The position numbers and the translations under genes are program-made. Below are positions 6,188 to 38,973 of a stretch of DNA of 49,817 bases, piece by piece. How positions within the stretch are numbered: the stretch's first letter is position 1; the number at the start of each line of letters is the position of its first letter. A model generated the notes under the pieces. The model made no database searches. It was not told the DNA's origin and saw only the letters and a list, made by a program, of their open reading frames with translations. The stretch comes from a virus: IMG/VR virus record IMGVR_UViG_3300043398_000437, positions 1 through 49,817 of that record. One strand, 5' to 3'.

Positions 6188-6204
6188 TGCGCCGTGACCC
6201 TGCC
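6188..6204 (-). repeat. 18-nt intergenic element, copy 1
   Basis: Gene-strand GGCAGGGTCACGGCGCA. It touches the TAG of the 162-residue virion gene and ends 10 nt before the ATG of the holin-like gene. It differs from consensus at one internal base and lacks the first G. Confidence 0.8.
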
Positions 6205-6692
6205 TAGGGCGCGAAGTCGGCGATCTTCGTGCGCTGGTAGGCGACCTCGATCCGGCCGCGCAGGAGCGTGCGCACCGTGCCGTCGGAGAATTGCGCCCGC
6301 ACGTCGTAGTACATGCGCGAGCCGAGCATCGCCCCGAGCGCCGCCTCGTCGCCGGTCGACCAGGTGACCGCGTACCAGCCCTTGCCGGTGTCGGTCGCCG
6401 TGTCCTCGGTCGCCTGGTCCGCGTCGGGCGTGATCTGGTAAACGCTCGGCACGAGCTCGTCGAGCAGGTCGATCGACCGTCGCTGCAGCACGAGGTCCGC
6501 GTCGAGTAGCGAGTCCTTGCGCCGCACGCTGAGCACGATCACCGCGCCGTCAAGCGATAGCGCGTCGTCGCCGCGCCGCGCCTGGAAGCGCCACTCCGCC
6601 GATTCGCCAGGCACGAGCAGGTCGATCCCCGCGCTCGTGAGGCCCTGCGAGGTGAGGTCGAACGCGTAGGGATCCGAGATCTCGATCGACAT
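6204..6692 (-). CDS. Tail/baseplate accessory protein, fibre-like N-domain
   Basis: 162 residues. The pattern VPGESAEWRFQARRGDDALSLDGAVIVLSVRRKDS followed by a C-terminal MYYDVRAQFSDGTVRTLLRGRIEV matches the beta-sandwich proteins found beside phage tail fibre genes (BppU-like N-domain type). It probably decorates or attaches tail fibres. It lies immediately upstream of the lysis cassette, at the 3' end of the tail-fibre module. I do not recognise a specific family. Confidence 0.5.
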   Translation of the reverse strand: MSIEISDPYAFDLTSQGLTSAGIDLLVPGESAEWRFQARRGDDALSLDGAVIVLSVRRKDSLLDADLVLQRRSIDLLDELVPSVYQITPDADQATEDTATDTGKGWYAVTWSTGDEAALGAMLGSRMYYDVRAQFSDGTVRTLLRGRIEVAYQRTKIADFAP

Positions 6693-6695
6693 CGT

Positions 6696-7076
6696 CTACC
6701 TCACCGTTCCAAGGCGAGCCTGCACCCGTGCCCCGACGCGCAGCGGCGCCAGTCGCGCCGACGCCTCGAGGCCCTTCGCGTACCGCGCGGCGCCGCGCCG
6801 GGACGAGAACGCGGCGCGCATCCTTACCGGCAGCGTCGTGGTGGACGAACTGGCGTCGTAGGCGAAGACGACCACGGGAGCTGGTCCGTCCGCGTCGGTG
6901 ACGTTAGCGACGATGCACTCTGCGTCGAACGCGACCGCGACCACATCCGCCATCTCCGCGTCGACAACAGCCTCTCCGAAGAGGATGTCCGTCGACGTGT
7001 CGACGATCGCCACGGGTATGGCGCCGACCTGAGCGATCGGCTTGCCTGCCATGGCGTCGGAGAGGTACAGCGTCAC
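6696..7076 (-). CDS. Virion-associated protein of unknown function
   Basis: 126 residues from GTG 7076. Beta-rich sequence (GAIPVAIVDTSTDILFGEAVVD, APVVVFAYDASSSTTTLPVRM) with a basic C-terminus (ARLAPLRVGARVQARLG). No recognised motif. Its location in the tail-fibre module suggests a structural role. Confidence 0.45.
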   Translation of the reverse strand: MTLYLSDAMAGKPIAQVGAIPVAIVDTSTDILFGEAVVDAEMADVVAVAFDAECIVANVTDADGPAPVVVFAYDASSSTTTLPVRMRAAFSSRRGAARYAKGLEASARLAPLRVGARVQARLGTVR

Positions 7077-7079
7077 GCG

Positions 7080-7502
7080 CTACCCCTGAGCCAGCCTGAT
7101 GATTCCGCTCGCCGACCAGACGAGCGTGTAGTCGGTACCGTTGGCTGCGAGCGTCGGCGAGATGTCGACGCACGCGATGAGCGGCGAGTCCGCGTCGTTC
7201 GTGATCTGCTTGAACAACACCGCCCTGGTCGGAGTGCTCGTGCCCAACGCCGTCCACACGACGTCGGCGGCGTCGAGCACGACGCGGTCGCTCGCATCGT
7301 CGAGCGTCGCCGTCTTGCTCGCCAGTGCCTTGCGCACGTAGTTCGTCGCGGACACCTCGCCCGTCACGGAGTCGACGAAGTCGCTGTCTGGATCCGGCGT
7401 GTAGCTCGAGGTCACGAGCAGCACGCGGATGTCGGCGGACTCCCAGTTCAGCGCCCCGCTCGCGAGGAGCAGCAGCGCACGGTTGTACACCGTGGTGGCC
7501 AT
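7080..7502 (-). CDS. Virion structural protein, tail-fibre region
   Basis: 140 residues from ATG 7502. Begins MATTVYNRALLLLASGALNW, then DIRVLLVTSSYTPDPDSDFV, a conserved-looking ATNYVRKALA, and LDASDVVW-like strands ending in ISPTLAANGTDYTLVWSASGI. Proteins with this order (nascent strand, SYTPDxDxDFV, YxRxxL, DxDVVW) are common in tail modules of phages from GC-rich hosts and are annotated as virion proteins. Biochemical role unknown. Confidence 0.6.
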   Translation of the reverse strand: MATTVYNRALLLLASGALNWESADIRVLLVTSSYTPDPDSDFVDSVTGEVSATNYVRKALASKTATLDDASDRVVLDAADVVWTALGTSTPTRAVLFKQITNDADSPLIACVDISPTLAANGTDYTLVWSASGIIRLAQG

Positions 7503-7503
7503 G

Positions 7504-7701
7504 CTAAGCCCCCCTCATCAGCAGCGCCGCCGCCGCGAGCGCGTCGCCCTTCTCGGCCGCTGCGCGCAGGAGCGCGTTCACGGCGTCCACCATGGCGGGC
7601 GACTCCGTCGGTTCGCCGGCTGCGTCGCTGACTGCCTGCACGCGCTCGTGATGCGCCTCGAGCTGCTTGCCATGATGCCGCCGGATCTGCCGCTTACGCA
7701 T
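7504..7701 (-). CDS. Small basic/helical protein after the tailspike
   Basis: 65 residues from ATG 7701, which overlaps the tailspike stop by 8 nt (ATGCGTAA). The start is basic (MRKRQIRRHHGKQLEAHHERVQ), the rest a helix rich in Ala (ALLRAAAEKGDALAAAALLM). Could be a tailspike chaperone or simply a small hypothetical protein. Confidence 0.5.
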   Translation of the reverse strand: MRKRQIRRHHGKQLEAHHERVQAVSDAAGEPTESPAMVDAVNALLRAAAEKGDALAAAALLMRGA

Positions 7702-10150
7702 TGGCGACACCCCATGCGAACTTCGCACCCGCGCTCGCCGCCGAGTGCTGGACCAGGTACCCGACTCCTGTGACCACGTCGGTCTGATCGCAGGCCAGAC
7801 CGGTGAGTGCGCGGCCCGTCGAGTTCACGCCGCCGCCGAACAGGAGCGGACGGAACGGGCTGGCTGCTCGCGAGAAGACGAATGTCCGGTCGGCGGCCGA
7901 ACGACCGCCGACGAAGGCGGCCTGCAGCACCACGCCGCACGACTTCGACGCCGTGTTGACGACGAGCGTCGCCGAGTTGCCGGCGGTGCCAGCGGTGTTC
8001 ATGGCGATCTGCACGTACCCGTAACTCGCCTGCCCGTCGAAGTCGGTGGCGGTGAGGTACGCACCGAGGGCCGTGTTGATCTCGGCGATCAGCTGAGCCT
8101 TGGTCCCGAACACGGCCCCGCCGGAGACGTACGTGACCTTCAGGCCCGGGTAGTCTGCGGGGTAGCCGTTCAGCACGGTCACGGTCGTGTCGAAGGTGTT
8201 CGCGTACGTGAACGTAGCCGAGTGGCCGGCGCCGTCGTCCACAACCACCGTATCTCCCGGGTACCAGATCAGGGGCCGAGCCTGCACCGTGGTCCACTTG
8301 CTCACGCCGCCGACGTCTGGATTGCCGAACCACAGCAGGTTGCGCGCCTTGCCATCACCACACGTGGCCACGCCACCGAGTCCGTGCATGCTCTCGATCA
8401 GCTTGGTGTTTGACACCAGGTCCACGCCTGGGTTGATGCCGATCAGCGGGAAGCAGTCGGTCACGTCCATCCTGCGCCCGGGTGTGTCCTGCGTCGCCGG
8501 TGTCGCGACGAACTTGTTACCGCGGTGCTCTGAAGGCGTGTCCTTCCCGCCGCACGAGATCGACAGGTACGCGTAGGGCGTGTTCCCCGTCGGGTTGACC
8601 CACCCGTGAACCCGGTTGTCGTAGGAGCGCAGGTCGGGACAGTGCGTGTAGCTGTACGAGACCTCGGCGTCGCGCACGTAGTTGTCAGAGACGTCCACTG
8701 GTCCCGGGCACTCGGCGATCAGGATTCCGGTGTCGAGCTTGCTCAGGTACGACGTGACGGCCTGCGATACCGTGATCGCCGAGCCGACGGTCACCGACAG
8801 AGTGTAGGTGGCGAACCCGTCGATCACGATCACCTGCGGGGTGATGTCGCTCGCCTCGATCTGCACGTCGGTCGCCTTCGCGAGAACGGGATTCATCTGG
8901 ATCTCGTAGCCGTACCCAGTCCGCCCGCGGATGGCATCGGCGAGCCTCGACGTGCAGCCGGCCGCAGTGGAGCTCGGCGTGTCGCGACTCACCTGGTACG
9001 GATTGCCGACGGACCCCACGCCTGTGTAGGCCGGATCTCCGGCGACGAACTGGTAGTACTTCGACCCGACAAGCACGGTGTCACCGACGGCAGGCTGCGA
9101 CGCCACGGTCAGCTCGCCGACGAAGTGTGCTTCGTTGACGACCTGGTTGCGCGCGACAAATACGCCACCCGTCGAGCTCGTGGCGCCAGCCGAACCGATG
9201 CCGGAGCTCTTGATCTGGAAGCCCTTGCAGTCGCTTCTGGTGTTGCGCCGCGTGAGCAGGCACGTGTTGTCGGTCACGTACACCATCTCGGCGCCGTAGA
9301 TCTCGAGCACCATGTCGCAGTCGGTCGCGTGGCAGTTCGTCATCACGACCTGTCGATGCGGCACCTCGGCGTCCGAGCCGGCTTCGAGCAGCGCGTGGCA
9401 GTTCACGGCCACGCACCCGTCGACGACGATCTTCGACTTGCGCTCGAGGTTGCCCGTATTACCCTTCCACTTGATCGAGTGCTCGTTGCAGTTCTCGAAC
9501 GACGTGCCTCCGCCAATCCACAGCCCCTCGGTGCGTCCGAACGGATAGACGAAGTGGCTGTGCGAGGCCAGGACCGACGTGCGCTTGAACTGCACGCCGT
9601 CGATGCGCGAGTAGCTGGGCGGTACGAGGGCGTTGGGACAGTCATCGACGATGCCGCCGGTGAAGTTCAGCCCGCGCTGCAAGACGTTCGAGATGATCGA
9701 GATCGGCGCGCCGCAGTACTTGAAGTCGACGCGATCGACGTCGATGTCGTAGGTCGCACCGCGCAGGTAGATCGCGGGGCGGTTGTTGGTGAGGTAGTCA
9801 TCGTCGGTGGTCGTACCGGTGAACGAGATGCCTGGACCAAAGCGAACCTTCGAGCTGGCGTTCAGCATGAACGCTGCGCACGGATTGGCCGCGGCCGTGC
9901 TGCCGTTGTACGTGAACTGCACGCACCCGCCACCCATGACCTCGAACTTCAGGCGCGAGACGGCATCGACGAGCACGGCGTACTCGACGCCGGTCCCGTA
10001 CGTGCCCACCTTGGTCAGCGGGATCACGCCCGGTGCCAGGAAGATCGTTTGCCACTGCCCGCCCGATGCGGCCTTGACGCGCGCGATCGCGGCGATGAGC
10101 GACGTCTGGTCGTAGGCGATCGACCAGTCGATCTCGGCGGGGTAGCTCAC
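7694..10150 (-). CDS. Tailspike protein with right-handed beta-helix
   Basis: 818 residues from GTG 10150. After an N-terminal region (residues 1-60, probable attachment) come many short repeating turns rich in Asn, Gly, Val and Cys (GGGCVQFTYNGST, KVRFGPGISFTGT, IDVDRVDFKYCG, LNFTGGIVDDCPNA, SKIVVDGCVAVNCHA, VVMTNCHATDCDM, MVYVTDNTCLL). This is the signature of parallel beta-helix polysaccharide-binding or depolymerase tailspikes. The C-terminal 250 residues look like Ig-like or trimerisation domains. It likely recognises and may cleave host surface glycan; no catalytic Asp/Glu pair can be named with confidence. Confidence 0.7.
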   Translation of the reverse strand: MSYPAEIDWSIAYDQTSLIAAIARVKAASGGQWQTIFLAPGVIPLTKVGTYGTGVEYAVLVDAVSRLKFEVMGGGCVQFTYNGSTAAANPCAAFMLNASSKVRFGPGISFTGTTTDDDYLTNNRPAIYLRGATYDIDVDRVDFKYCGAPISIISNVLQRGLNFTGGIVDDCPNALVPPSYSRIDGVQFKRTSVLASHSHFVYPFGRTEGLWIGGGTSFENCNEHSIKWKGNTGNLERKSKIVVDGCVAVNCHALLEAGSDAEVPHRQVVMTNCHATDCDMVLEIYGAEMVYVTDNTCLLTRRNTRSDCKGFQIKSSGIGSAGATSSTGGVFVARNQVVNEAHFVGELTVASQPAVGDTVLVGSKYYQFVAGDPAYTGVGSVGNPYQVSRDTPSSTAAGCTSRLADAIRGRTGYGYEIQMNPVLAKATDVQIEASDITPQVIVIDGFATYTLSVTVGSAITVSQAVTSYLSKLDTGILIAECPGPVDVSDNYVRDAEVSYSYTHCPDLRSYDNRVHGWVNPTGNTPYAYLSISCGGKDTPSEHRGNKFVATPATQDTPGRRMDVTDCFPLIGINPGVDLVSNTKLIESMHGLGGVATCGDGKARNLLWFGNPDVGGVSKWTTVQARPLIWYPGDTVVVDDGAGHSATFTYANTFDTTVTVLNGYPADYPGLKVTYVSGGAVFGTKAQLIAEINTALGAYLTATDFDGQASYGYVQIAMNTAGTAGNSATLVVNTASKSCGVVLQAAFVGGRSAADRTFVFSRAASPFRPLLFGGGVNSTGRALTGLACDQTDVVTGVGYLVQHSAASAGAKFAWGVANA

Positions 10151-10978: not shown

Positions 10979-10980
10979 GA

Positions 10981-11331
10981 CTACGCCCCCTCGTAGATCT
11001 CGTCGGTCTTGTAGACCGACACCGTCCCGCTGCTCGAGACGCGCGTCCAGATCAGGTAGCCGTCGCTCTTGTCGTCGGCGACGCAGAAGTGGAGCTCTGT
11101 GTCGGCCGGCAGGCGTCGCCCCTTCGTGCCCAGCGTGCCCGCGCTCGGCGGCGTGCCGGAGACGACCTCGGTGGTCTGGAGGAACCGGATCGCGACCGTT
11201 GCCTCGATCACGTACCAGCCAGGCTCGAGCTGGGTCGAGTTCGTCTGCACGGTGTTGTCCACCGTGGCGGCCTCGATCACGGCCGGGCCTACCTTGCCCT
11301 CGTAGAGGCGGTGGAGATTTGCCTGCGACAT
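10981..11331 (-). CDS. Fibre-region virion protein
   Basis: 116 residues from ATG 11331. Beta-rich (LEPGWYVIEATVAIRFLQTT, ELHFCVADDKSDGYLIWTRVSSSGTVSVYKTDEI). No SD-like sequence precedes the ATG; instead a copy of the 18-nt element ends 10 nt upstream. Probably a fibre-associated or capping protein. Family unknown. Confidence 0.5.
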   Translation of the reverse strand: MSQANLHRLYEGKVGPAVIEAATVDNTVQTNSTQLEPGWYVIEATVAIRFLQTTEVVSGTPPSAGTLGTKGRRLPADTELHFCVADDKSDGYLIWTRVSSSGTVSVYKTDEIYEGA

Positions 11332-11341
11332 GCCGCGACGA

Positions 11342-11359
11342 TGCGTCGCGACCCTGCCC
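11342..11359 (-). repeat. 18-nt intergenic element, copy 2
   Basis: Perfect consensus on the gene strand (GGGCAGGGTCGCGACGCA). It lies 10 nt before ATG 11331 and just after the stop of the TM/coiled-coil gene. Confidence 0.85.
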
Positions 11360-11360
11360 G

Positions 11361-12826: not shown

Positions 12827-12837
12827 GGTCTACACCC

Positions 12838-12855
12838 TGCGCCGCGACCCTGCCC
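12838..12855 (-). repeat. 18-nt intergenic element, copy 3
   Basis: Perfect consensus (GGGCAGGGTCGCGGCGCA), 11 nt before ATG 12826 and 2 nt after the stop of the oxygenase gene. Confidence 0.85.
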
Positions 12856-16192: not shown

Positions 16193-16202
16193 CGCGCCAC
16201 GT

Positions 16203-16220
16203 TGCGCCGCGACCCTGCCC
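16203..16220 (-). repeat. 18-nt intergenic element, copy 4
   Basis: Perfect consensus (GGCGCA ending). It abuts the TAG of the hub gene and ends 10 nt before GTG 16192. Confidence 0.85.
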
Positions 16221-17654: not shown

Positions 17655-18850
17655 CAGCCGCCCTCGCCGATGCCGCCGGCGCCGTTCGCCGTCGTCCCGC
17701 CGCTGTCCGTCCCGGTCCCGCGCCCAGATCCGTTCGCGCCGTTGAGCGTCGACCCGCTCGCCGCGCTGGCACCCACGCCGTCGCGGTCCGTCACGGCGCC
17801 GGCGGCTGGGATGACGAGGAGCTCGTCGCCGCTCAGGGTGGGCGACACGAGGCCGTTGCGCTGCGCGATCATGCGCCACTGCGACGTCGACCCATAGAAC
17901 CGCCGCGAGATCGAGTAGAGGTGCTCGCCCTGGAATGGCCGGTAGAAGCAGCGCACGTCGGCCTCGGCGCGGCTCGCGACCTCGTCGGAGGCATCGGAGG
18001 CGTGCAGGCTCAGCAGTCGCAACTGGAAGCCGAGCTCACGGCACCAGGCCTCGAAGTTGAGGACGTCCGAGGCGGTCTGGTAGCCGAGCTCGGTGTCCGC
18101 GCGGAGGGTGATGAGCGTGTTCAGCGCCGTGCCGACGACGTTACGCATCGACGCGAAGAGCGCCCCGACGCGCAGGACGTCGAGCTTCGCCTCCTCGGCT
18201 GGCTGCACGATCCGCTGGTTCAGCGCCGCATCCAGGTCCGCGAAGGCCGCCTCGAGGTCGTCGAGCAGGCCGCCAACGTCGCTCGCCACGGTCCCGCTCA
18301 GCGCCGCGGTCGGGGCCAGCGCGCGCAACTCGCGCACCCGATCCACGTCCGTGCTCAGGCTGTCGGTGAGCGCCGACGCGGACATCGCGCGCGTGGCGTT
18401 GCTCGCCGGGCGCAGCGGGTCAGCCTCCTCGGCCACCTGCGGCGAGAGCGTGAAGCGGTAGCCGATGCGGCTGTCGTAGTCGAGCGGGTATTCCGCCTCG
18501 GTGATCAGGCCGACGAACGCGATCCCGGAGTACTCGATCCGCACGAGGTTCGCGCGGCGCACCATCGTGTCGAAGGCCAGGCGCGTCGCGCGCGCGTAGC
18601 CGGCGCCGTTCCAGCGGTCGTCCCAGGTGCCCTCGAGCACCTGGTCCTTGCTGTTTGGCCCGAGCACCTGGTGCGCCGGCTCGTCGCCGCCGGGGTAGTC
18701 GGTCCGCTTGTTCCGCACGGCGGTGCCGATGGTCCACGGCCGGCGCGGCATCGAGCGCAGCTCCGCCGACCACTCGAACCGCGCGGCGCCGCCGACGACC
18801 ACTGCGCCGTCGCGAAGGAGCTCGGTCACGATGAACTGGCCGCCGGTCAT
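17654..18850 (-). CDS. Baseplate/tail protein with C-terminal LysM domain
   Basis: 398 residues from ATG 18850. N-terminal beta domain (residues 1-140), a helical middle (LLDDLEAAFADLDAALNQRIVQ) and a LysM-like module near residues 295-350 (FYRPFQGEHLYSISRRFYGSTSQWRMIAQRNGL...LVIP). The last 45 residues are Gly/Ser/Thr linker. It occupies the position of Mu gp43/DNA-circularisation-like and T4 gp53-type baseplate proteins. LysM may bind peptidoglycan or join tape measure and hub. Confidence 0.7.
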   Translation of the reverse strand: MTGGQFIVTELLRDGAVVVGGAARFEWSAELRSMPRRPWTIGTAVRNKRTDYPGGDEPAHQVLGPNSKDQVLEGTWDDRWNGAGYARATRLAFDTMVRRANLVRIEYSGIAFVGLITEAEYPLDYDSRIGYRFTLSPQVAEEADPLRPASNATRAMSASALTDSLSTDVDRVRELRALAPTAALSGTVASDVGGLLDDLEAAFADLDAALNQRIVQPAEEAKLDVLRVGALFASMRNVVGTALNTLITLRADTELGYQTASDVLNFEAWCRELGFQLRLLSLHASDASDEVASRAEADVRCFYRPFQGEHLYSISRRFYGSTSQWRMIAQRNGLVSPTLSGDELLVIPAAGAVTDRDGVGASAASGSTLNGANGSGRGTGTDSGGTTANGAGGIGEGG

Positions 18851-20598
18851 GCGCCCTCACGGAAGACGTGGCGCGAGCCGCGCGGGTTCTTCAGGTAGTC
18901 GACGGCCACCGAGGTCATCGCGACCGCGAAGCGGTCCGGGTCGTCGGTCATGACCATCACCTCGTTGTGCTGGCTGACGTTGACGTTCTGCTTCGGTGGC
19001 TTCGAGGCGTCGTCCTTGCTGTTGGCGTTCGGCAGCGCCTTGAGCCCCTTGATGAACAGCCCGGCCGGGTCCATCAACGCGCGCGCCGCCGCCGGCACGA
19101 GCGACGGGATCTGCTGGAGCCCGGCGTTGAACGAGCCGATCGCCTTGGCCGCGGTCGCCCACGCCGCGTGATCGAGGAGTCGGTTCAGTGTGCTGATGTA
19201 GCCCTGGATCTCCGGGACCATAATGCCGGCCTGGCTTCCGGTCTTGAAGATCGCGTTCTCGTCGACCTTCCCACCACGGATGTAGCCTTCGGCGCGCGCG
19301 GTCGCGAGCACGCGCGCCGCAATGCGCGACTGTGCCGCCTCGGTCCCGGCCGTGGCGGCGAACGCCGCATCCCGGCCGGAGAACCGGTCGCCGCCGAACA
19401 TCCCGCCGAACTGCGCCATGCCCAGCTCGCCCATGCTCCGGCGCGCCGTGCCCCAGTTCGCCTGCGAGTCGATCCGGCGGGTCTGCATATCGTCGGCGTG
19501 GTCGGCGAGCAGCGTGGCCGTCGCGGCGACGCCGGCGAGCAGCGTGGACACGCCGCCGATGCTCCTGGCGAACCCCGCCAGGGACCCCAGCCCGCCCCCG
19601 TTGAGCTGCGCCAGCGAGCCGACGACGCCCTGCACGCTTCCCGTGACCAGCCCGACGCCCTTGCCGACGAGGTATGCCTTCGCCAGCGTCATCAGCAAGT
19701 CGCGGTGCTCGACGATGAACCCGGCGATCTTCTTGACCATGTCGAACCCGGTCTTGAGCGCCGACGTGAAGTCGGCCGCCCACTGCTTGATCTTCTCCGG
19801 GTGCTTCTCGATCCAGGTGTTCCACTTCGCGATCTCGGCCGTGATGCTCTTGAACAGCGGCAGGCCGATCTTGCCGAGCGCGATGGAGAGGTTGTCCTTC
19901 AGCGTCGAGGTCACGCCAGCGAAGGACTCGCCCATCGCCTTCGCCGCCGACTTGAGCGCCGGGTCGTTCAGCGCGCGCATCGTGATCTTGGCGCGGTCGG
20001 CGGCGCTCGAGCGGTTGAATCGCTCCTGGGAGATGCCCTGCGAGGCCAGGAAGATCTGCGCGGTGCGGTCGCGCGCGCCCACGGTGCCGGCGAGCATCTG
20101 CTTCACGTCGAGCGCGACCATGTCCGCGCGTTCGCCGAGCGCGGCCGCCGCGATCGTCGCGCCGACGGTCATCTCCTTGAGCTGCTTCATCCCCAGGCCA
20201 GCCTGCATCGCCGACGAGGCGATCATCTGGTGCATCTCGAGGAAGTCCTTCGTCTCGCCGACGGAGTTCTTGGCGACCTGCTGGTAGTCCTGGAAGAGGC
20301 CGGTCGCGTGCGACATCGCCGTGTCCCACCTGCCACCGAGGAGCATCTTCTCCTGCGCGGCGAGCGAGATGGTCGACTGCTCGATGCTCGAGTTGAAGTC
20401 GATGAACATCGACTTCCCGAGGCGGAAGGCGCCGTAGCCGGCCAGCGCCGCGCCGACGCCCCTGAGCGCCGAGACCAGCCCGCCGGTCGACTTCGAGGCG
20501 CGCTCGGCGCCCTGGCCGATCTTGTCGAGGCCGCCGGACGCGGAATCGCGAGTCTTATAGAGTACTTCGATGGCGTACGTCGTGGTCGTACCGCTCAT
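18847..20598 (-). CDS. Tail tape measure protein
   Basis: 583 residues from ATG 20598. Opens TYAIEVLYKTRDSASGGLDKIGQGAERASKSTGGLVSALRGVGAALAGYGAFRLG, the usual tape-measure start. It is followed by long helices, a hydrophobic mid-section (LLMTLAKAYLVGKGVGLVTGSVQGVVG) and a C-terminal NVSQHNEVMVMTDDPDRFAVAM. It sets tail length; at about 0.15 nm per residue it would predict a tail of roughly 85-90 nm (inference). An HNH gene separates it from the chaperone genes. Confidence 0.85.
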   Translation of the reverse strand: MSGTTTTYAIEVLYKTRDSASGGLDKIGQGAERASKSTGGLVSALRGVGAALAGYGAFRLGKSMFIDFNSSIEQSTISLAAQEKMLLGGRWDTAMSHATGLFQDYQQVAKNSVGETKDFLEMHQMIASSAMQAGLGMKQLKEMTVGATIAAAALGERADMVALDVKQMLAGTVGARDRTAQIFLASQGISQERFNRSSAADRAKITMRALNDPALKSAAKAMGESFAGVTSTLKDNLSIALGKIGLPLFKSITAEIAKWNTWIEKHPEKIKQWAADFTSALKTGFDMVKKIAGFIVEHRDLLMTLAKAYLVGKGVGLVTGSVQGVVGSLAQLNGGGLGSLAGFARSIGGVSTLLAGVAATATLLADHADDMQTRRIDSQANWGTARRSMGELGMAQFGGMFGGDRFSGRDAAFAATAGTEAAQSRIAARVLATARAEGYIRGGKVDENAIFKTGSQAGIMVPEIQGYISTLNRLLDHAAWATAAKAIGSFNAGLQQIPSLVPAAARALMDPAGLFIKGLKALPNANSKDDASKPPKQNVNVSQHNEVMVMTDDPDRFAVAMTSVAVDYLKNPRGSRHVFREGA

Positions 20599-21107
20599 CG
20601 ACGTGCCTTATCTTCAAGGTGCCGCCACGTGCGTCGGTTGGCGATCTTGCTGATCGCACCATGGTTGACACCGAAGGCGGCCGCGAGCTCCATCAGTGTC
20701 TCTCCGGCAGCTCGCCGAGCTCGAATCGCGAGCACGTCGGCCTCGACCAGCTTCGCGCGACCGTGTGCCTCTCCGCGGGTCTTGTCGGCGTGGCGCGGCC
20801 CACGCGACTGGCGACCCTTCGAGACCATGTCGTCCGCGTTGTCCTGGACCGAACCGAGGAATAGGTGCCCCGGACGCACGCACCGCGGGTTGTCGCAGCG
20901 GTGGCACACGAAGATCCCATGAGGAATCGGGCCGTTCGCCATCTCCCATGAGAGGCGATGCGCGTAGTCCTGGCGGCCGCCGCTCCGGCGGCTCCCGCCG
21001 ACGCCGATCACGCCGTAGCCGCGCCCGGCCTTGGCCCCGGTCCACTCCCAGCAGCCGTCGCCGATGCGGACCTTCGACCAGAAGCGGTCCTCGACGCTGA
21101 TGCCCAC
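20595..21107 (-). CDS. HNH endonuclease 1 (type A)
   Basis: 170 residues from GTG 21107. Zinc/HNH core CWEWTGAKAGRGYG...RLSWEMANGPIPHGIFVCHRCDNPRCVRPGHLFLG...ADDMVSKGR, followed by a C-terminal HTH (LIEADVLAIRARRAAGETLMELAAAFGVNHGAISKIANRRTW). This is the usual free-standing phage homing layout. It is inserted between the chaperone and tape measure genes and overlaps the tape start by 4 nt. DNA stretches near 20880 and 21045 are close copies of those in HNH 2. Confidence 0.9.
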   Translation of the reverse strand: MGISVEDRFWSKVRIGDGCWEWTGAKAGRGYGVIGVGGSRRSGGRQDYAHRLSWEMANGPIPHGIFVCHRCDNPRCVRPGHLFLGSVQDNADDMVSKGRQSRGPRHADKTRGEAHGRAKLVEADVLAIRARRAAGETLMELAAAFGVNHGAISKIANRRTWRHLEDKARR

Positions 21108-21117
21108 GAAGGCAGAT

Positions 21118-21135
21118 TGCGCCGCGACCCTGCCC
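21118..21135 (-). repeat. 18-nt intergenic element, copy 5
   Basis: Perfect consensus. It abuts the stop of the T-frame of the tail chaperone and ends 10 nt before GTG 21107 of HNH 1. Confidence 0.85.
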
Positions 21136-24301: not shown

Positions 24302-24775
24302 TTAGCTCCTCTGCCTTGCGCGCGCCTTTGAGGCGGCTGCAGCGGCAATGACGCACGTGCGGCAGGCGCGGCCAAGTCGGCCGTTGCGCTTGGACTGCAC
24401 GTACGTGTTCTCGGGCGTGAACTCGTGCCCACGCTTGCAGTGGGTCTTCTCGGCGTTGGCACGCGCCAGCGTGTGGCCGCGCAGGATGTTCACACGCGCC
24501 GTCACCGGTTCCAGGTGGTCCGGGTTAACGCAGCACGTCGTCCTGCACTTGTGGTCGATCTGGAGCGCTTCGGGGATGGCGCCGCGCAGCATCTCGTAGA
24601 CGACGCGATGCGCCTTCTGCATGCGCATGCGGCCTGCAGGGTCACGTCGCGAACCGATCCCGACAGAGCCGTATCCGCCACGCTTCGCGACGGCGCCCAT
24701 CCAGATCCAGCAGCCCGAGTTCGGCTCGGGCAGGATCTTCGACTGCAGGCGCTCTGGCAGATCGAGCAGGTTCAC
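24302..24775 (-). CDS. HNH endonuclease 3 (type B)
   Basis: 157 residues from GTG 24775; a 161-residue form from ATG 24787 is possible. I prefer 24775 because the product then begins VNLLDLPERL like HNH 4 (MNLLDLPDRL), and because it puts the 18-nt element 11 nt upstream as at other genes. HNH core: NSGCWIWMGA...GYGSVG...LQIDHKCRTTCCVNPDHLEPV, then CKRGHEFTPENT. The last 80 coding-strand bases at the 5' end differ from HNH 4 at only three or so positions: a recent duplication. It lies between the sheath and the tail terminator genes. Confidence 0.85.
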   Translation of the reverse strand: MNLLDLPERLQSKILPEPNSGCWIWMGAVAKRGGYGSVGIGSRRDPAGRMRMQKAHRVVYEMLRGAIPEALQIDHKCRTTCCVNPDHLEPVTARVNILRGHTLARANAEKTHCKRGHEFTPENTYVQSKRNGRLGRACRTCVIAAAAASKARARQRS

Positions 24776-24786
24776 GTTCAGCACCA

Positions 24787-24804
24787 TGCGTCGCGACCCT
24801 GCCC
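24787..24804 (-). repeat. 18-nt intergenic element, copy 6
   Basis: Perfect consensus (GACGCA form). It abuts the TAG of the tail-terminator-like gene; its last base would be the A of ATG 24787. Confidence 0.85.
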
Positions 24805-27594: not shown

Positions 27595-28650
27595 TTACGA
27601 GGTCTTGAGGTCGACGATCTGGCCCATCGCGTTCGGCCGCTTGCACTGGAGCTGCAGGTAGCCGACGAGCTGGAACTTGATGTGGTCGCCCAGCTTCGCG
27701 AGCGGGTTCAGGCGCAGCGAGATCTTGCGCTTCGCCGGGCCGAGCTGCTCCTCGGGCGTGCCGTCGGCCATGGTGAAGCCGCGGCCGCCGTTCTGGTCGT
27801 CGCTGGTGTCGGCGACCTGCACGATGCGCAGGTGCGACGTGTTGAGGAACATCATCGTGCCCTCGGGCGCGTCGACGTCCTCGATCATCGGGATGCCGTC
27901 GAACTCGAGCAGGTTGTAGCCGGCGTCGAGCTTGATGAGCTCGCCGCGCATGCGCACCTGGTCGACCCACTGGCGCTTCTGGTCGGTGATCGTGCCGTAC
28001 TTCCGGTGCTGGAAGGCGTCGGTGATGATGAGGTCCGGCTTCTCGCCCGAGGCCTCGTAGATGTTCTGGCGCATCTGGCGCATGAGCTCGACGCTCAGCG
28101 CGCGCTCCGTGCCGCCGTTGGCGAGGCGGTTCGACGCCCACTGGGTGTACGTGCCGCGGTCGAGGCCGGCGTAGGAGCCGGTCGAGCCGAGCGCGCCGCC
28201 CGTGGAGCCGTCGGTGAGGCCCGTGATCTCCTGCGGCGACGTGCCCGTGCCGGTGTAGAGATCCTGGTTGATGAGCTTGCCGATGCGCTGCGCGCAGTCG
28301 GAGAGCTCGTCCATGAACACGTCGCGCAGGCCCGACGGGTTGTTGGTCACCCGCGAGACGGCGCGCGCGAGGCCGCCGATCATGAAGGCGTCCTGGTAGA
28401 CGCCGAAGTTCAGCGATGCCTGGACCTTGGTGTCGCTCTGGAAGTCGCCGCCGCTGAGGTCGGCGCCGTCGGCCTTCACGCTGCCGACGGCCGTGCCCAC
28501 CTTGACGTCCCAGGTGACGGCCTTGTTGGTCGCCGGCACGACGTCGATGAACGCCTGCAGCACGACGGCGCGGTTGATCTGGTTGACGACCGTGTCCTGG
28601 ACGTTGATGCCCAGGCGCGAGGCCACTCCTGCGTAATCGAGCATGGTCAT
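27595..28650 (-). CDS. Major capsid protein
   Basis: 351 residues from ATG 28650, with AAGGAG upstream (an internal ATG at 28644 is close). Abundant, evenly folded sequence (VVNQINRAVVLQAFIDVVPATNKAVTWDVKVG, GVYQDAFMIGGLARAVSRVTNNPSGLRDVFMDELSDCAQRIGKLINQDLYTG). Then come LIITDAFQHRKYGTITDQKRQWVDQ, YNLLEFDGIPMIEDVDAPEGTMMFLNTSHLRIVQ and a C-terminal KISLRLNPLAKLGDHIKFQLVGYLQLQCKRPNAMG. That end is typical of an HK97-fold capsid. It follows the scaffold gene. Confidence 0.85.
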   Translation of the reverse strand: MTMLDYAGVASRLGINVQDTVVNQINRAVVLQAFIDVVPATNKAVTWDVKVGTAVGSVKADGADLSGGDFQSDTKVQASLNFGVYQDAFMIGGLARAVSRVTNNPSGLRDVFMDELSDCAQRIGKLINQDLYTGTGTSPQEITGLTDGSTGGALGSTGSYAGLDRGTYTQWASNRLANGGTERALSVELMRQMRQNIYEASGEKPDLIITDAFQHRKYGTITDQKRQWVDQVRMRGELIKLDAGYNLLEFDGIPMIEDVDAPEGTMMFLNTSHLRIVQVADTSDDQNGGRGFTMADGTPEEQLGPAKRKISLRLNPLAKLGDHIKFQLVGYLQLQCKRPNAMGQIVDLKTS

Positions 28651-28682
28651 GGCGACCGCTCCTTCGTTCGTTCCGGTTCACC

Positions 28683-28701
28683 GACGCGGAAACGCCGCGT
28701 C
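28683..28701. promoter_or_regulatory. Hairpin upstream of the capsid gene, proximal
   Basis: GACGCGG and CCGCGTC arms with a 5-nt loop, 33 nt before the capsid ATG. Could protect the mRNA 5' end or attenuate transcription. Confidence 0.5.
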
Positions 28702-28748
28702 TGCGTTCGGCCGATGACGACGGCCACGTGGCCCTCTTCCGAGGGGAT

Positions 28749-28769
28749 CCGCTCGTTGACGACGAGCGG
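28749..28769. promoter_or_regulatory. Hairpin upstream of the capsid gene, distal
   Basis: CCGCTCGT and ACGAGCGG arms (8 bp) with a 5-nt loop, between the HNH 4 stop and the proximal hairpin. Confidence 0.5.
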
Positions 28770-28838
28770 CAGACGTGGCCCGCGTAAGCGGGGAGCGGTC
28801 GACTACGAGCCGGTCGACCAGCGGCTTAAGAGTGAGGC

Positions 28839-28856
28839 TACGCTACGACCCTGCCC
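28839..28856 (-). repeat. 18-nt intergenic element, copy 7 (degenerate, at the HNH 4 3' end)
   Basis: Gene-strand GGGCAGGGTCGTAGCGTA: the first 11 bases match perfectly and the TAG stop of HNH 4 lies inside it. Unlike other copies it is not near a start codon; the capsid ATG is 188 nt away. Confidence 0.6.
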
Positions 28857-29274
28857 GCGCCTTGAAATAGGCGGCGTCTCTCCGTCGAGCGCACTCTCGG
28901 CAGACCCTGCACTTCGTGCCAGAGCCGGCCATCGAGACGCGCGTGTTCTTGGGCGTGAACTCATGCCCGCGCTTGCAGTGCGTCTTCTCGGCGTTCTTCC
29001 GAGCCGGCGTGTTGCCGCGCATGAGGTTTTCTCGGTCGGTAACGGGCTCGAGGTGGTCGGGGTTCACGCAGCACCGCGTGCGGCACTTGTGGTCCAGCAC
29101 CATCCCATCCGGGATAGGCCCGCGCAGCGCCTCGTACGTCACGCGATGAGCGCGGGAATTCCAGTCGCGCCCGTACCCCGCTTCGCTCAGCGCGCCCATC
29201 CAGATCCAGCAGCCCGAGTTCGGCTCTGGCAGGATCTTCGACTGCAGGCGATCTGGCAGATCGAGCAGGTTCAT
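28843..29274 (-). CDS. HNH endonuclease 4 (type B)
   Basis: 143 residues from ATG 29274. MNLLDLPDRLQSKILPEPNSGCWIWMGA, RAHRVTYEALRGPIPDGMVLDHKCRTRCCVNPDHLEPV, CKRGHEFTPKNT, then CRVCRECARRR (zinc). Strongly similar to HNH 3, including near-identical DNA over the first 80 bases. It splits scaffold from capsid, two genes normally adjacent, so it is almost certainly a late insertion. Confidence 0.9.
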   Translation of the reverse strand: MNLLDLPDRLQSKILPEPNSGCWIWMGALSEAGYGRDWNSRAHRVTYEALRGPIPDGMVLDHKCRTRCCVNPDHLEPVTDRENLMRGNTPARKNAEKTHCKRGHEFTPKNTRVSMAGSGTKCRVCRECARRRDAAYFKARAGS

Positions 29275-29990: not shown

Positions 29991-30017
29991 GGTGCGTGTG
30001 CCCTCCAGAGGTCAAGC

Positions 30018-30034
30018 TGCGTCGCGACCCTGCC
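30018..30034 (-). repeat. 18-nt intergenic element, copy 8
   Basis: 17 of 18 consensus bases (the first G is C). It lies 11 nt upstream of the GGAGGGCAC leader and 27 nt upstream of ATG 29990, so it belongs to the second spacing class. Confidence 0.8.
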
Positions 30035-30041
30035 GCGACGA

Positions 30042-30995: not shown

Positions 30996-31005
30996 GCGCG
31001 CAGGG

Positions 31006-31023
31006 TGCGCCGCGACCCTGCCC
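31006..31023 (-). repeat. 18-nt intergenic element, copy 9
   Basis: Perfect consensus. It abuts the TAG of the 54-residue gene and ends 10 nt before ATG 30995. Confidence 0.85.
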
Positions 31024-32825: not shown

Positions 32826-32828
32826 GTG

Positions 32829-34634: not shown

Positions 34635-34644
34635 AGAGGCAGGG

Positions 34645-34662
34645 TGCGCCGCGACCCTGCCC
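34645..34662 (-). repeat. 18-nt intergenic element, copy 10
   Basis: Perfect consensus. It overlaps the last base of the terminase stop and ends 10 nt before GTG 34634 of the portal gene. Confidence 0.85.
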
Positions 34663-36074: not shown

Positions 36075-36528
36075 CGGCCTTCGCCAGCAGCTCGGCCACG
36101 CGCTCCGCGCGCTGCGCCGGCGTCATCGACTCCACCGACACTGCGCCCGAGTGCTCCACCTTCTCCGGCGCGTAGACCGCGTCGATCTTGTTCAGCATGT
36201 CGAGCGCCCCGCGCGCCGCTGCGTACGCCCCTGGCACCTCGGCTCGGTCGGCCATCGCCGCTCGCAGCAGCATCAGCACGCGCTCGCGCGCCGCACGTCG
36301 TAGCTCCGGCGTGGCCATCGGCGCCGATGCCTTCCAGTTCTCCTCGACGCGCGCGATGTAGTTCTGGATCTGGCGCCCGGTAACCTTCCACTGGTCCGCG
36401 AACACCTCGATGATCCATCCTCGACTGCGTCCAGCGAGCAGCGCCTCCTCGACCTGCGTCAAGCGCACCGCGCTCATGGCCTCGCGCTCTGCGTTGCCCT
36501 GTCCCTTTGGCCGACCCACTCCAGCCAT
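36052..36528 (-). CDS. terS: Terminase small subunit
   Basis: 158 residues from ATG 36528. Begins GRPKGQGNAEREAMSAVRLTQVEEALLAGRSRGWIIEVFADQWKVTGRQIQNYIARVEENWK, an HTH of the terS type. It is followed by helices (AARERVLMLLRAAMADRAEVPGAYAAARGALDMLNKIDAVYAPEK). The position immediately before terL and the length are as expected. It recognises the packaging site. Confidence 0.8.
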   Translation of the reverse strand: MAGVGRPKGQGNAEREAMSAVRLTQVEEALLAGRSRGWIIEVFADQWKVTGRQIQNYIARVEENWKASAPMATPELRRAARERVLMLLRAAMADRAEVPGAYAAARGALDMLNKIDAVYAPEKVEHSGAVSVESMTPAQRAERVAELLAKAGAKPNGS

Positions 36529-36538
36529 TTGAGAACTC

Positions 36539-36823
36539 CTACGAATTCAAGGGCTTGTCGCCCTCGGCCGTCGCGATGAGCTTCTGCGCCCTCTCTGCGC
36601 ACTCGAGCGCGGTGGACGCCGTCGCGACCAGTTGCCCGAGCTGGGCCACGTTGCGCGTGTCCCGGCCGATGAGGTCGAGTGCCAGGCGCGAGCACTGGCC
36701 GGCGGCGGCGATGCCGGCGAGCACGGTCATCCGCAGGTTGGCGACGATCGCCTTGCCCTGCTCGTGAGCGATCTCTTCGGGGGTTGGTTCGGGGGGAAGC
36801 GGTTCGAACTTCTCTGCGGCCAT
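36539..36823 (-). CDS. Small helical protein upstream of terS
   Basis: 94 residues from ATG 36823. Leader GGAGGGCA (36837-36830) follows an 18-nt element by 11 nt. All-helical with a Pro-rich start (FEPLPPEPTPEEIAHEQGKAIVANLRMTVLAGIAAAGQCSRLALDLI). No motif. Possibly linked to packaging by position. Confidence 0.55.
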   Translation of the reverse strand: MAAEKFEPLPPEPTPEEIAHEQGKAIVANLRMTVLAGIAAAGQCSRLALDLIGRDTRNVAQLGQLVATASTALECAERAQKLIATAEGDKPLNS

Positions 36824-36848
36824 GGTGGATGCCCTCCACCTGGCACGT

Positions 36849-36866
36849 TGCGTCGCGACCCTGCCC
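36849..36866 (-). repeat. 18-nt intergenic element, copy 11
   Basis: Perfect consensus (GACGCA form). It lies 11 nt upstream of the GGAGGGCA leader of the gene at 36539-36823, the same class as copy 8. Confidence 0.85.
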
Positions 36867-36869
36867 TGG

Positions 36870-37127
36870 CTAGGCCTTCCCCGGCTCTCCGCCGAAGCCC
36901 TCGAAATGGCCGTGCTCCTCGAAGAGGACCACGGACTCCGGCCCGGTGGCATGGTCGATGCCGATGACGTAGCGGGGCTCGGGCGCGGGTTCGTCGTCCT
37001 CGCGGTCGGCGTCCAGCCGCATGCACCACACGGCGCAGCGCGGGCAGTAGCGGGCGCGGACCGACCTCGAGCTCACGGTCTGGCGCAGGCAGGTGGGGCA
37101 GCGCCACGAGCGGTGGTCGGTGCTCAC
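36870..37127 (-). CDS. Zinc-ribbon protein
   Basis: 85 residues from GTG 37127 (GTGA overlap). WRCPTCLRQTVSSRSVRARYCPRCAVWCM gives two Cys-x2-Cys pairs, a zinc ribbon. The rest is an acidic/aromatic segment (YVIGIDHATGPESVVLFEEHGHFEGFG) that looks like a beta-hairpin. Perhaps a transcription or terminase accessory; not recognised. Confidence 0.6.
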   Translation of the reverse strand: MSTDHRSWRCPTCLRQTVSSRSVRARYCPRCAVWCMRLDADREDDEPAPEPRYVIGIDHATGPESVVLFEEHGHFEGFGGEPGKA

Positions 37128-37387
37128 AGGCCACCTCCGTGCGAGTGCCGGTTCACCGCCCGCTGGTAGTCCAGGATGTACTGCGGCGTGCCCGTGATCG
37201 GAAGCTCGTCCGGCGGCGGCACAGCGATCGGCTCGCCTCCGTCCTTCGCGTACTCGAAGTGCCGCGCGAAGTCGGCGAGGTTGAAGAACGCCCGCGCCTG
37301 GTAGCGCGTCATCTCGAGCACCGGACACATCGGCCAGTGGCCGTGGCGGAGGTTGCGCGAGCAGAAGTAGCACTCGTGGATCCTCAC
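37124..37387 (-). CDS. Cys-containing small protein
   Basis: 87 residues from GTG 37387 (GTGA). HECYFCSRNLRHGHWPMCPV (Cys/His metal site), then TRYQARAFFNLADFARHFEYAKDGG and a Pro-rich C-half. No known family. Part of the run of tiny coupled genes between the terminase and replication modules. Confidence 0.55.
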   Translation of the reverse strand: MRIHECYFCSRNLRHGHWPMCPVLEMTRYQARAFFNLADFARHFEYAKDGGEPIAVPPPDELPITGTPQYILDYQRAVNRHSHGGGL

Positions 37388-37596
37388 CGCGCCGCCCCAT
37401 CCTTCGCGTAGACCAACTCTCCCTCGGCGGTGACGCGGGCGCGCTCCTTGTCGCCGAGGTAGATGATCGACTCGTGCTTCGGCTTGCGGTCCCGCTTCGC
37501 GAGCAGCACCGCGTAGTCGAGCGTCACGCACTCCGCGTCGTTGGGGCTGCCGATGCCGAGGAACACCACGCGGTAGTGGGTCGACTGCGCCCTCAC
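37384..37596 (-). CDS. Small beta-rich phage protein
   Basis: 70 residues from GTG 37596. Sequence HYRVVFLGIGSPNDAECVTLDYAVLLAKRDRKPKHESIIYLGDKERARVTAEGELVYAK: alternating strands and turns. Not recognised. Confidence 0.55.
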   Translation of the reverse strand: MRAQSTHYRVVFLGIGSPNDAECVTLDYAVLLAKRDRKPKHESIIYLGDKERARVTAEGELVYAKDGAAR

Positions 37597-37793
37597 GACC
37601 CGTCACCGTCCAGCTGGTCGAGCCGGGGCTGCGCCCGCCGCTGCACGGCGCGCAGGGTCTCGAGCTCGTCGACCTTCCCGGCGAGCTGGGCGAGGGCGGC
37701 GAGAAGCGCGCGCACCGCCCGGCCGTACTGCTGCAGCAGCGCCGAGTCGTCGGCGAGCTCCTCCACCACGATCGTCTTACGCTGCGCGCGCAT
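37593..37793 (-). CDS. Small helical protein
   Basis: 66 residues from ATG 37793, overlapping the previous gene's 3' end by 17 nt. Mostly one long helix (LLQQYGRAVRALLAALAQLAGKVDELETLRAVQRR), probably coiled coil. Function unknown. Confidence 0.5.
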   Translation of the reverse strand: MRAQRKTIVVEELADDSALLQQYGRAVRALLAALAQLAGKVDELETLRAVQRRAQPRLDQLDGDGS

Positions 37794-38040
37794 CCTCGTC
37801 CTCCTCCGGGTCCTTCAGTTGCGTGAAGTTCGCGAGCGAGCCGCACCCATCGTGCTCGCGACGCAGGTGCGCCACGAGATCTCCGTGCCAGACGGTCTCG
37901 CTGCACGGCCGCATGCGCTTGATGGCGCCGCCGGCCGACTCCTCGAGCACATCCCTCGCGCCGCGCAGGCGCTCGAGCTTGGTCTCCACCTTCGCGATCT
38001 CCTGGTCGAGCCAGTGGACCGCCTTGTTGAATGCGCTCAT
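37777..38040 (-). CDS. Small protein with coiled coil and C2H2-like motif
   Basis: 87 residues from ATG 38040. Helix FNKAVHWLDQEIAKVETKLERLRGARDVLEES followed by MRPCSETVWHGDLVAHLRREHDGC, in which Cys and paired His residues could bind zinc. Acidic tail. Not recognised. Confidence 0.55.
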   Translation of the reverse strand: MSAFNKAVHWLDQEIAKVETKLERLRGARDVLEESAGGAIKRMRPCSETVWHGDLVAHLRREHDGCGSLANFTQLKDPEEDEDARAA

Positions 38041-38255
38041 GCCCTGCCCTCCGTGTTCCTGTACTCGGCCGGCCGCGCCGGCTCCTCGAAGACCTCGGGA
38101 TGCGCGGCCTCCCGGTGCCACTGGACGCCGCGCTGGTCGGTGAACCGCGCCCCGCACGTCGCGCAGCTCGGCGCCGGCGGAGGCGGATCGTCGTCGCGGT
38201 CGTGCCCTCGCAGCAGGAACACGATCGCGAGACCGATGACGCCGACGAGGATCAC
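38037..38255 (-). CDS. TM-anchored C2H2-like zinc finger protein
   Basis: 72 residues from GTG 38255 (GTGA). An N-terminal membrane helix (VILVGVIGLAIVFLL), a short acidic/Pro linker (RDDDPPPPAP), then CATCGARFTDQRGVQWHREAAH. That gives Cys-x2-Cys...His-x4-His spacing like a zinc finger. Membrane-tethered zinc fingers are unusual. The cytosolic domain might bind DNA or a host protein at the membrane. Confidence 0.6.
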   Translation of the reverse strand: MILVGVIGLAIVFLLRGHDRDDDPPPPAPSCATCGARFTDQRGVQWHREAAHPEVFEEPARPAEYRNTEGRA

Positions 38256-38488
38256 CGCGACCGCGCCTTGGCGACCCTGCGCAGCCGTGCGCGCTTCGGG
38301 CACTCCGCGCCCATGTTCCACCACTCGCGCCAGCGGTGCGTGCATCCCGCGGCGACGCACGTGGCGCACGGCACGATCGGGTCGCCAGGCTTCCAGCGCT
38401 TCTCGCGCGGCGGCATCCGGGACCCGCAGCACTCGCACTTCACCATCGCCGTATGGCTTGCGGCGAACGCCGTGAACGGTCGACTCAT
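38252..38488 (-). CDS. Cys-rich zinc-binding protein
   Basis: 78 residues from ATG 38488. KCECCGSRMPPREKRWKPGDPIVPCATCVAAGCTHRW carries seven Cys and a His; a basic tail follows. It is likely a two-zinc ribbon, perhaps nucleic-acid binding. The 4-nt overlaps on both sides are consistent with the gene run. Confidence 0.6.
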   Translation of the reverse strand: MSRPFTAFAASHTAMVKCECCGSRMPPREKRWKPGDPIVPCATCVAAGCTHRWREWWNMGAECPKRARLRRVAKARSR

Positions 38489-38973
38489 GCGTGCCTCGCC
38501 GCGCGGCGCGACTTCCGAAACGCCAATTCAAGCTGCTGCACCGGTGCCCTCCGTTGCTTGTCCAATCTGCGCCGCGACCCTGCCCGCTCCTCGTCGACGA
38601 ACGCCGGCTCGAGGTACACGTCGAGGCTCGGCAGCGCGAGCTGCATCCATCCCTCGAGGGCCATCTGCGCGGCGGCGAGCGAGAGCATGGCCACGCCCGT
38701 TCCGCCCGTCTCCGCCTGCCAGCCCTCGACCTGCTCTCGCCGCAGGCGACCGCGCTCCTCGAGCCGCTTGGCTGCCTTGCGCAGCGTGCGGTACTGCAGG
38801 CCGGTCTCCAGCATCAGCGCGTCGTTGGTGGCCGACCCGCCGAGCGACCGGATCGCTCCCACGAGGGCCCGCTCCGAGTCGCCCACGCCGTCGAGCGCCA
38901 TGCACGTGTCGCACGCCTCGACGCCGACCCGCTTCGCCTTCCCGCACTCGCAAACGGCCGACCGCTTCGACAC
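38485..38973 (-). CDS. Zinc knuckle plus winged-HTH protein
   Basis: 162 residues from GTG 38973. CECGKAKRVGVEACDTC (zinc), then a wHTH (ERALVGAIRSLGGSATNDALMLETGLQYRTLRKAAKRLEERGRLRREQ) and a helical/hydrophobic C-domain. The 18-nt element (38568-38585) is translated in frame near residues 130-136 and a GGAGGGCAC leader with GTG follows it. The last 18 residues may therefore be a separate mini-ORF and the ancestral stop may have been lost. A DNA-binding regulator is likely. Confidence 0.6.
   Translation of the reverse strand: MSKRSAVCECGKAKRVGVEACDTCMALDGVGDSERALVGAIRSLGGSATNDALMLETGLQYRTLRKAAKRLEERGRLRREQVEGWQAETGGTGVAMLSLAAAQMALEGWMQLALPSLDVYLEPAFVDEERAGSRRRLDKQRRAPVQQLELAFRKSRRAARHA
38568..38585 (-). 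repeat. 18-nt intergenic element, copy 12 (inside an ORF)
   Basis: Perfect consensus but translated in the wHTH gene. It is followed after 15 nt by GGAGGGCAC (38552-38544), as in copies 8 and 11. Confidence 0.8.

Follow-up and report, generated by a model that had tools for sequence, protein, structure and literature searches.

A GC-rich repeat in the structural region of a phage genome as a probable late promoter

The linear virus record IMGVR_UViG_3300043398_000437 of IMG/VR, analysed over its whole stretch of 49.8 kb (~70% GC; hereafter the window), carries between its structural genes an 18-nucleotide (nt) element with the consensus GGGCAGGGTCGCGRCGCA. The evidence below makes it very probable that this element is a late promoter of the phage, starting mRNAs about 11 nt downstream that would be either leaderless or would open with a Shine-Dalgarno (SD) sequence.

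The repeat, its conserved bases and its distance to gene starts

Allowing up to three mismatches, the consensus matched the window 12 times, always on the minus strand, which is the gene strand; 100 dinucleotide-preserving shuffles gave a mean of 0.96 matches and at most 3. All 12 copies reported in an initial annotation of this DNA were found again; the two copies given as 17 nt are 18 nt long with a different first base (6188-6205 begins with A and 30018-30035 with C). The window encodes terminase, portal, head, contractile sheath and baseplate proteins together with several HNH endonucleases. Almost all of these genes lie on the minus strand, and the copies are confined to this structural side (6.2-38.6 kb). 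None was found, at up to three mismatches, in the early region (39-49.8 kb), which contains helicase-loader-like, helicase, methylase and ParB-like genes. The copies are listed here, with distances given in nt after the 18-mer (ORF, open reading frame):

38564..38585 (-): putative promoter copy 1; 18-mer 38568-38585, T at 38564; GGAGGG at 15 nt; within the 3' end of ORF 38485-38973
36845..36866 (-): putative promoter copy 2; 18-mer 36849-36866, T at 36845; GGAGGG at 11 nt, ATG at 25 nt; predicted SD-first leader
34641..34662 (-): putative promoter copy 3; 18-mer 34645-34662, T at 34641; GTG 34634 at 10 nt; portal gene
31002..31023 (-): putative promoter copy 4; 18-mer 31006-31023, T at 31002; ATG 30995 at 10 nt
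30014..30035 (-): putative promoter copy 5; 18-mer 30018-30035, T at 30014; GGAGGG at 11 nt, ATG at 27 nt; scaffold-like gene, predicted SD-first leader
28835..28856 (-): degenerate, doubtful copy; 18-mer 28839-28856; T present; no ATG, GTG or SD at the usual offset
24783..24804 (-): putative promoter copy 6; 18-mer 24787-24804, T at 24783; GTG 24775 at 11 nt; HNH endonuclease gene
21114..21135 (-): putative promoter copy 7; 18-mer 21118-21135, T at 21114; GTG 21107 at 10 nt; HNH endonuclease gene
16199..16220 (-): putative promoter copy 8; 18-mer 16203-16220, T at 16199; GTG 16192 at 10 nt
12834..12855 (-): putative promoter copy 9; 18-mer 12838-12855, T at 12834; ATG 12826 at 11 nt
11338..11359 (-): putative promoter copy 10; 18-mer 11342-11359, T at 11338; ATG 11331 at 10 nt
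6184..6205 (-): putative promoter copy 11; 18-mer 6188-6205, T at 6184; ATG 6177 at 10 nt

The exact pattern was present in 5 IMG/VR stretches and a relaxed one, GGCAGGGTCRCGRCGCA, in 30. Six of these 30 (L011, L013, L025, L029, L033 and L044) are related phages with several copies each; they encode homologues of the structural proteins of the window, and many of their copies lie at matching gene boundaries. L025 and L029 share identical sites, and so do L033 and L044. The other 24 stretches were not recognised as relatives; they have one or two matches each, which were attributed to chance, their context being judged from the flanks only. A search with the sheath protein added a seventh related record, L152. 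The element was present in 4 of the 28 loci of the sheath search, all with 64-65% sheath identity, and absent from the other 24, which have at most 51% identity (23 gave no match above 12 bits and L022 none at up to four mismatches). The element therefore marks one lineage.

Sites were picked on the 18-mer alone, for which the best score in three mononucleotide shuffles was 11.9 bits, and 31 non-redundant sites of at least 13.9 bits were aligned, 11 from the window and 20 from relatives. Two L044 sites were left out because they duplicate those of L033, and four L029 sites because they duplicate those of L025; also dropped were the degenerate copy of the window (12.6 bits) and six low hits of 8-12.4 bits (window +31518; L142 -10229 and -9216; L143 +5121; L144 -11142 and -2817). 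The fourth nt after the 18-mer, which was not used in finding the sites, is a T in 30 of the 31 (p ~1e-23 against base composition) and in all 11 full copies of the window, so that the conserved unit is GGCAGGGTCNCGRYGCA-NNN-T. Both C at position 17 and A at position 18 (A18) of the element are present at every one of the 31 sites. Within CA-NNN-T the A and the T stand four positions apart, as do A-11 and T-7 of the bacterial -10 element, and the stretch leading from the T to the presumed start shows no conservation. Upstream of the 18-mer the 31 sites show no -35 hexamer of comparable conservation; a column of T at -3 upstream is due to TAG stop codons. A stop triplet, in any frame, lies no more than 8 nt upstream of the element at 25 of 31 sites, and for the seven window genes that have the element 8-13 nt upstream the whole intergenic gap is 26-31 nt, which means that the putative promoter fills it.

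ATG or GTG (RTG) follows 10-12 nt after the 18-mer at 20 of the 31 sites (8/11 in the window and 12/20 in relatives). At eight others this place is taken by an SD-like GGAGG, GAGGG or GAGGA, located at exactly 11 nt in seven cases and at 15 nt in one, with RTG at 22-27 nt. Counted from the T, an RTG or SD is present 6-8 nt downstream at 27 of 31 sites (the 20 with RTG at 10-12 nt and the seven with SD at 11 nt); the random expectation, taken from other places on these strands, was 8.4% for RTG at 10-12 nt and 3.4% for SD at 9-15 nt after the 18-mer. In an independent gene call, an SD match of at least 5 nt was detected in none of the 14 genes with the element 8-13 nt upstream and in 8 of the 9 genes with the element 14-40 nt upstream. 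Distances to the codon thus fall into two groups while the onset of RTG or SD is constant, as expected if this onset is the 5' end of the mRNA.

These results bear on the fixed distance to the start codon proposed in the initial annotation. For the window its observations hold: eight of the 12 copies end 10 nt (six copies) or 11 nt (two copies) before the named start codon, GGAGG is absent from their spacers, and the independent call agrees that genes of this kind are without SD. Once relatives are counted the distance is no longer fixed, being 10-12 nt at 20 of 31 sites, 22-27 nt at eight and 32-39 nt at three. That an SD can stand at the offset otherwise occupied by the start codon, and that a T follows four nt after the element, had both been missed.

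The repeat, the conserved T, the offsets and the fact that relatives keep them are read directly in the DNA; from these we infer transcription, its start point, its late timing and its recognition by a holoenzyme. The recognised part would extend from about -28 to -7 and consist of GGCAGGGTCNCGRYG and, directly after it, CA-NNN-T, the -10-like hexamer, in which the A occupies -11 and the T -7; the specific block would be located at -28 to -13, and there would be no conserved -35 hexamer. RNA synthesis would start about 11 nt downstream of the 18-mer, at 6-8 nt past the T. This start point would coincide with ATG or GTG at most sites, yielding an mRNA that is leaderless or nearly so, and at a minority it would fall on an SD, yielding an mRNA that opens with its own ribosome-binding site. 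Packed between the stop of one gene and the start of the next, these promoters would provide several structural genes and inserted endonuclease genes with their own transcription start late in infection. The enzyme would probably be a sigma70-type holoenzyme that a phage factor redirects. We favour a promoter because an onset of RTG or of GGAGG/GAGG near 11 nt is what a fixed transcript 5' end predicts, and also because A and T are conserved at -10-like spacing. Of the two interpretations in the initial annotation, its second choice, a promoter giving near-leaderless mRNA, is now preferred over its first, a signal for translation initiation.

Points against a promoter and alternative readings

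Several observations weigh against a promoter of this kind. At three of the 31 sites the usual place is occupied by neither RTG nor SD, and the RTG is located at 32-39 nt; among these, the orthologous sites L144 8002 and L025 7431 show an SD at 22 nt, and L029 7600 lacks one. The RTG offset itself varies by 2 nt (10-12). Position -12 is C at all 31 sites, and not the T of TANNNT, and the interior of the hexamer is GC-rich, which is unusual for sigma70-type melting. Sites L144 3829 and L025 3418 score weakly and are situated within an open frame; without them the counts are 28/29 for T, 18 for RTG, 8 for SD and 3 for neither. Moreover, the inclusion cut-off (~13.8 bits) was set after the list had been seen. 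Among genes without the element and with a gap of more than 5 nt, 17 of 44 have a 5-nt SD match, in a class to which no fewer than four element genes were wrongly assigned (three duplicates from L029, and window gene 24302-24787, the start of which was misplaced); weak SDs alone are therefore not diagnostic, since element-free genes are often without such a match. Promoter activity is predicted here from sequence. No sigma factor, searched for as sigma70 regions 2 and 4, was found over the cut-off in the window and seven other records (PF04542 in 0 of 8; PF08281 in 0 of 8 over the cut-off, with one sub-threshold match of E 0.0019 in an endonuclease-like frame of G003), and no activator was identified; all of the records may be fragments.

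The two weak sites, L144 3829 and L025 3418, are orthologous copies with an in-frame ATG at 10 nt, possibly the internal start of a shorter product.

A promoter might also serve a phage-encoded RNA polymerase, single-subunit or otherwise, instead of a sigma70-type holoenzyme. The element is long, contiguous, highly conserved and of a single orientation, and the negative sigma search over eight records fits as well. The T7-type polymerase family was found in 0 of 5 records, a weak point against it since the control likewise gave no match, in any of 14 genomes. T7-type promoters are conserved up to the start, unlike the stretch between the T and the start here. We consider a phage polymerase unlikely.

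The preferred interpretation of the initial annotation was that the element acts in translation, as an RNA element which, at a fixed distance from the codon, would recruit the ribosome or a phage protein and so replace the SD. RTG at 10-12 nt at 20 of 31 sites, the lack of an SD match in all 14 such genes, and the placement of copies where genes do not overlap are all in agreement with this. However, the codon distance is not fixed, because 8 of the 31 sites carry an SD at the same offset and have their codon at 22-27 nt, and A18 and the T are conserved at -10-like spacing with free positions between them. Complementarity to 16S rRNA, which had been put forward as a check, was no better than in shuffles: for two element variants, pairing with the E. 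coli 16S rRNA (which may not be that of the host) was matched or beaten by 70% and 93.5% of them. A translation signal is accordingly improbable.

It is more improbable still that the element is an operator or stoperator-like site for a phage repressor or another DNA-binding protein, being no promoter itself. The repeat is asymmetric, oriented with transcription and situated in short gaps, and the stoperators of cluster A are described as likewise asymmetric and oriented (PMC4351075). A fixed RTG/SD offset and a separate conserved T are not needed for such a site.

We attach hardly any weight to a sigma54-type promoter (GG and GC motifs, start ~11 nt downstream). The sigma54 promoter consensus is TGGCA...TGCA, which the ends of the element resemble, and the predicted start lies ~11 nt after GCA; however, the terminal GG and GC are separated by 12 nt in our consensus versus the 10 required, and a conserved T at -7 is foreign to this class. 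Equally little speaks for an RNA processing site or recombination boundary lying between genes by chance, which would suit the copies flanking inserted endonuclease genes at two loci and explains neither the conserved T nor the shared RTG/SD offset.

Endonuclease loci, a candidate regulator and neighbouring genes

Four HNH endonuclease genes are present in the window, two of which are the first gene behind a putative promoter copy:

20595-21107: HNH endonuclease gene
24302-24787: HNH endonuclease gene
28843-29274: HNH endonuclease gene
47172-48050: HNH endonuclease gene

Comparison of loci with and without an endonuclease gene shows what may stand at the offset. L033 is free of an endonuclease gene before the sheath gene and presents there the element, 11 nt, GAGGAG and the ATG of the sheath gene. 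At this place in the window and in L144 an endonuclease gene is inserted, with its GTG at 11 nt after the element, and in the window the GAGGAG for the sheath start is supplied by the end of the endonuclease gene. Likewise, before the homologue of window gene 18847-20598, L033 has no endonuclease gene and presents the element, 11 nt, GAGGG and ATG; an endonuclease start is located at the offset in the window (GTG, 10 nt) and in L143 (ATG, 12 nt). As judged from these sequences, the element stays with the locus and the occupant of the offset switches between SD and start codon. L143 in addition has one copy on the other strand; 11 nt beyond it stands the ATG of a frame that is likewise reversed and begins MKTCRICLQPG, which by eye only resembles an endonuclease VII/HNH-type protein.

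The last gene before the structural side, with copy 1 within its 3' end, encodes a possible recognition factor:

38485..38973 (-): candidate late regulator, proposed by inference only; 162 aa; four conserved Cys in an N-terminal knuckle, and a winged-helix-like region

Its homologue in L029 (33% identity) occupies the same relative place and also has a copy inside the gene. The product gave no Pfam family match and one weak PHROG match. Its structure model was poor at full length (pLDDT 47.7) and better for the first 92 aa (pLDDT 75.1). Foldseek returned no match at E <=0.001 for the candidate model in two libraries; the best matches were TFE-alpha, MarR-like and other winged-helix proteins (E 0.14 to ~1), so that the model points only weakly to a DNA-binding fold. 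A bolder version of the promoter reading would make the element the type of a new 22-bp, GC-rich promoter class without a -35, at which host RNA polymerase is redirected by a small phage protein, possibly this zinc-knuckle winged-helix candidate, and every late mRNA starts exactly on a start codon or SD. We regard this version as speculative and rather doubtful.

Downstream of copy 1 (38568) the RTG at 26 nt is an in-frame internal codon of ORF 38485-38973. The upstream ORF also shares its frame with an SD-linked GTG at 38541, and ORF 38037-38531 (-) opens with TTG; a frameshift or an unusual start is possible for this first gene after copy 1 (38037-38541). The degenerate copy 28839-28856 (three mismatches; 12.6 bits versus a best of 11.9 in three shuffles) stands upstream of the major head gene 27595-28650, separated from it by a gap of ~190 nt. 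Gaps of ~190-250 nt precede the major head gene in the window (28651-28842), L025 (8210-8456) and L144 (8832-9070); those of L025 and L144 are clearly alike, that of the window less so.

The helicase of the window is in two parts, DEAD/ResIII at 46774-47175 and Helicase_C at 43979-45373 (-), with ~1.4 kb of small ORFs between them. An HNH gene adjoins this split helicase (43979-47175), which may reflect an insertion or an assembly error. Regions 2219-3196 (+) and 43044-44000 (-) encode a C5 cytosine DNA methylase and an N6/N4 DNA methylase; DNA modified by these enzymes could matter for promoter recognition.

No cultured close relative was found: the sheath had no match in a phage collection, the portal matched one record there at 30.5% identity, and the best TerL match was 35.9%. 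A sheath profile search of bacterial genome contigs gave 7 loci with 24-30% identity in unrelated phyla, none of which names a host. Like the early region of the window, the non-structural part of G003 (L142) gave no copy of meaningful score, its two matches being of 12.3 and 8.7 bits with no start nearby; both negatives speak for a late promoter. A scan of 86 contigs of more distant relatives for other motif classes, in the form of repeated upstream 16-mers, found none in 69. L063 (IMGVR_UViG_3300037487_002729), distantly related by its terminase (46%) and of 51% GC, has TTGAC boxes (e.g. at 549 and 853 (+), and 6378, 6670 and 6963 (-)) and, ~17 nt downstream of them, GATAGT or TAGACT-like hexamers that precede ATGAGC/ATGAAC starts by a few nt, which we read as short-leader or leaderless sigma70-type promoters.

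Known systems and implications

The promoters of Thermus phage phiYS40 and of P23-45 are sigmaA -10-like and AT-rich. Unlike these, the element described here is GC-rich and ~22 bp long, with a block at -28 to -13 and with some copies predicted to be SD-first. A review presents most middle and late mRNAs of phiYS40 as leaderless (PMC3594737), and the middle and late promoters of P23-45 are placed in the extended -10 class (PMC7403470); late phage genes with a -10-like element are thus common to all three, and leaderless mRNAs are reported for phiYS40 and predicted here. The middle and late promoters of phiEco32 are described as one conserved element, tAATGTAtA, without a -35, used by a phage sigma factor and with the start 6-8 bp downstream (PMC8948821). 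The single element without a -35 and a start 6-8 downstream, predicted in our case, resemble the present system, whereas no sigma factor was found in our eight records and leaderless mRNA is not mentioned there for phiEco32.

Short oriented repeats a few nt before many starts have been described, with no role assigned, as Start-Associated Sequences (SAS/ESAS) in cluster K mycobacteriophages and as similar repeats in Microbacterium phages (EC, EF, EG, EI) (PMC3203893, PMC7302621), and the ESAS was later proposed to contain SigA-like promoters (PMC11373665). As described there, the SAS, GGGATAGGAGCCC, is 13 bp long, has an SD-like core, lies 3-9 bp from the codon and occurs mostly outside the structural module; the 18-mer has no GGAG, lies at least 10-12 nt from the codon, occurs on the structural side and keeps its spacing to RTG or SD alike. 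On these descriptions, the present element shares the logic of the phiYS40, P23-45, phiEco32 and SAS/ESAS systems and not their sequence. The initial annotation knew of no counterpart, yet the literature describes repeats tied to start codons as well as late phage mRNAs without leaders. For the GC-rich element itself no description was found in open-access papers (subscription papers were not covered), and the two such papers in which a 12-letter piece of it occurs deal with mycobacterial genes.

In Deinococcus-Thermus a TANNNT -10 motif next to ORFs is reported to give leaderless mRNAs (PMC12340547), and in mycobacteria an RTG at the mRNA 5' end is reported as necessary and sufficient for translation (PMC4633059). 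According to these accounts, both share with the present case a -10 element few nt before RTG; they differ in that cellular genes and a host sigma factor are involved, whereas here CANNNT is combined with a phage-specific upstream block. A mycobacterium- or Deinococcus-like host would read the mRNAs predicted here, because leaderless RTG mRNAs are, by the same accounts, translated or made there.

If the element is indeed a promoter, repeats fixed near phage start codons can function as promoters defining the 5' end of the mRNA, and the spacing of such repeats would have to be read against the transcript start and not against the codon. The swap of SD and start codon at one promoter position would offer a natural comparison of leaderless and leadered initiation. 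For phages never yet grown, a rule read from sequence would then predict where transcription begins, which start codons are used and which genes are leaderless.

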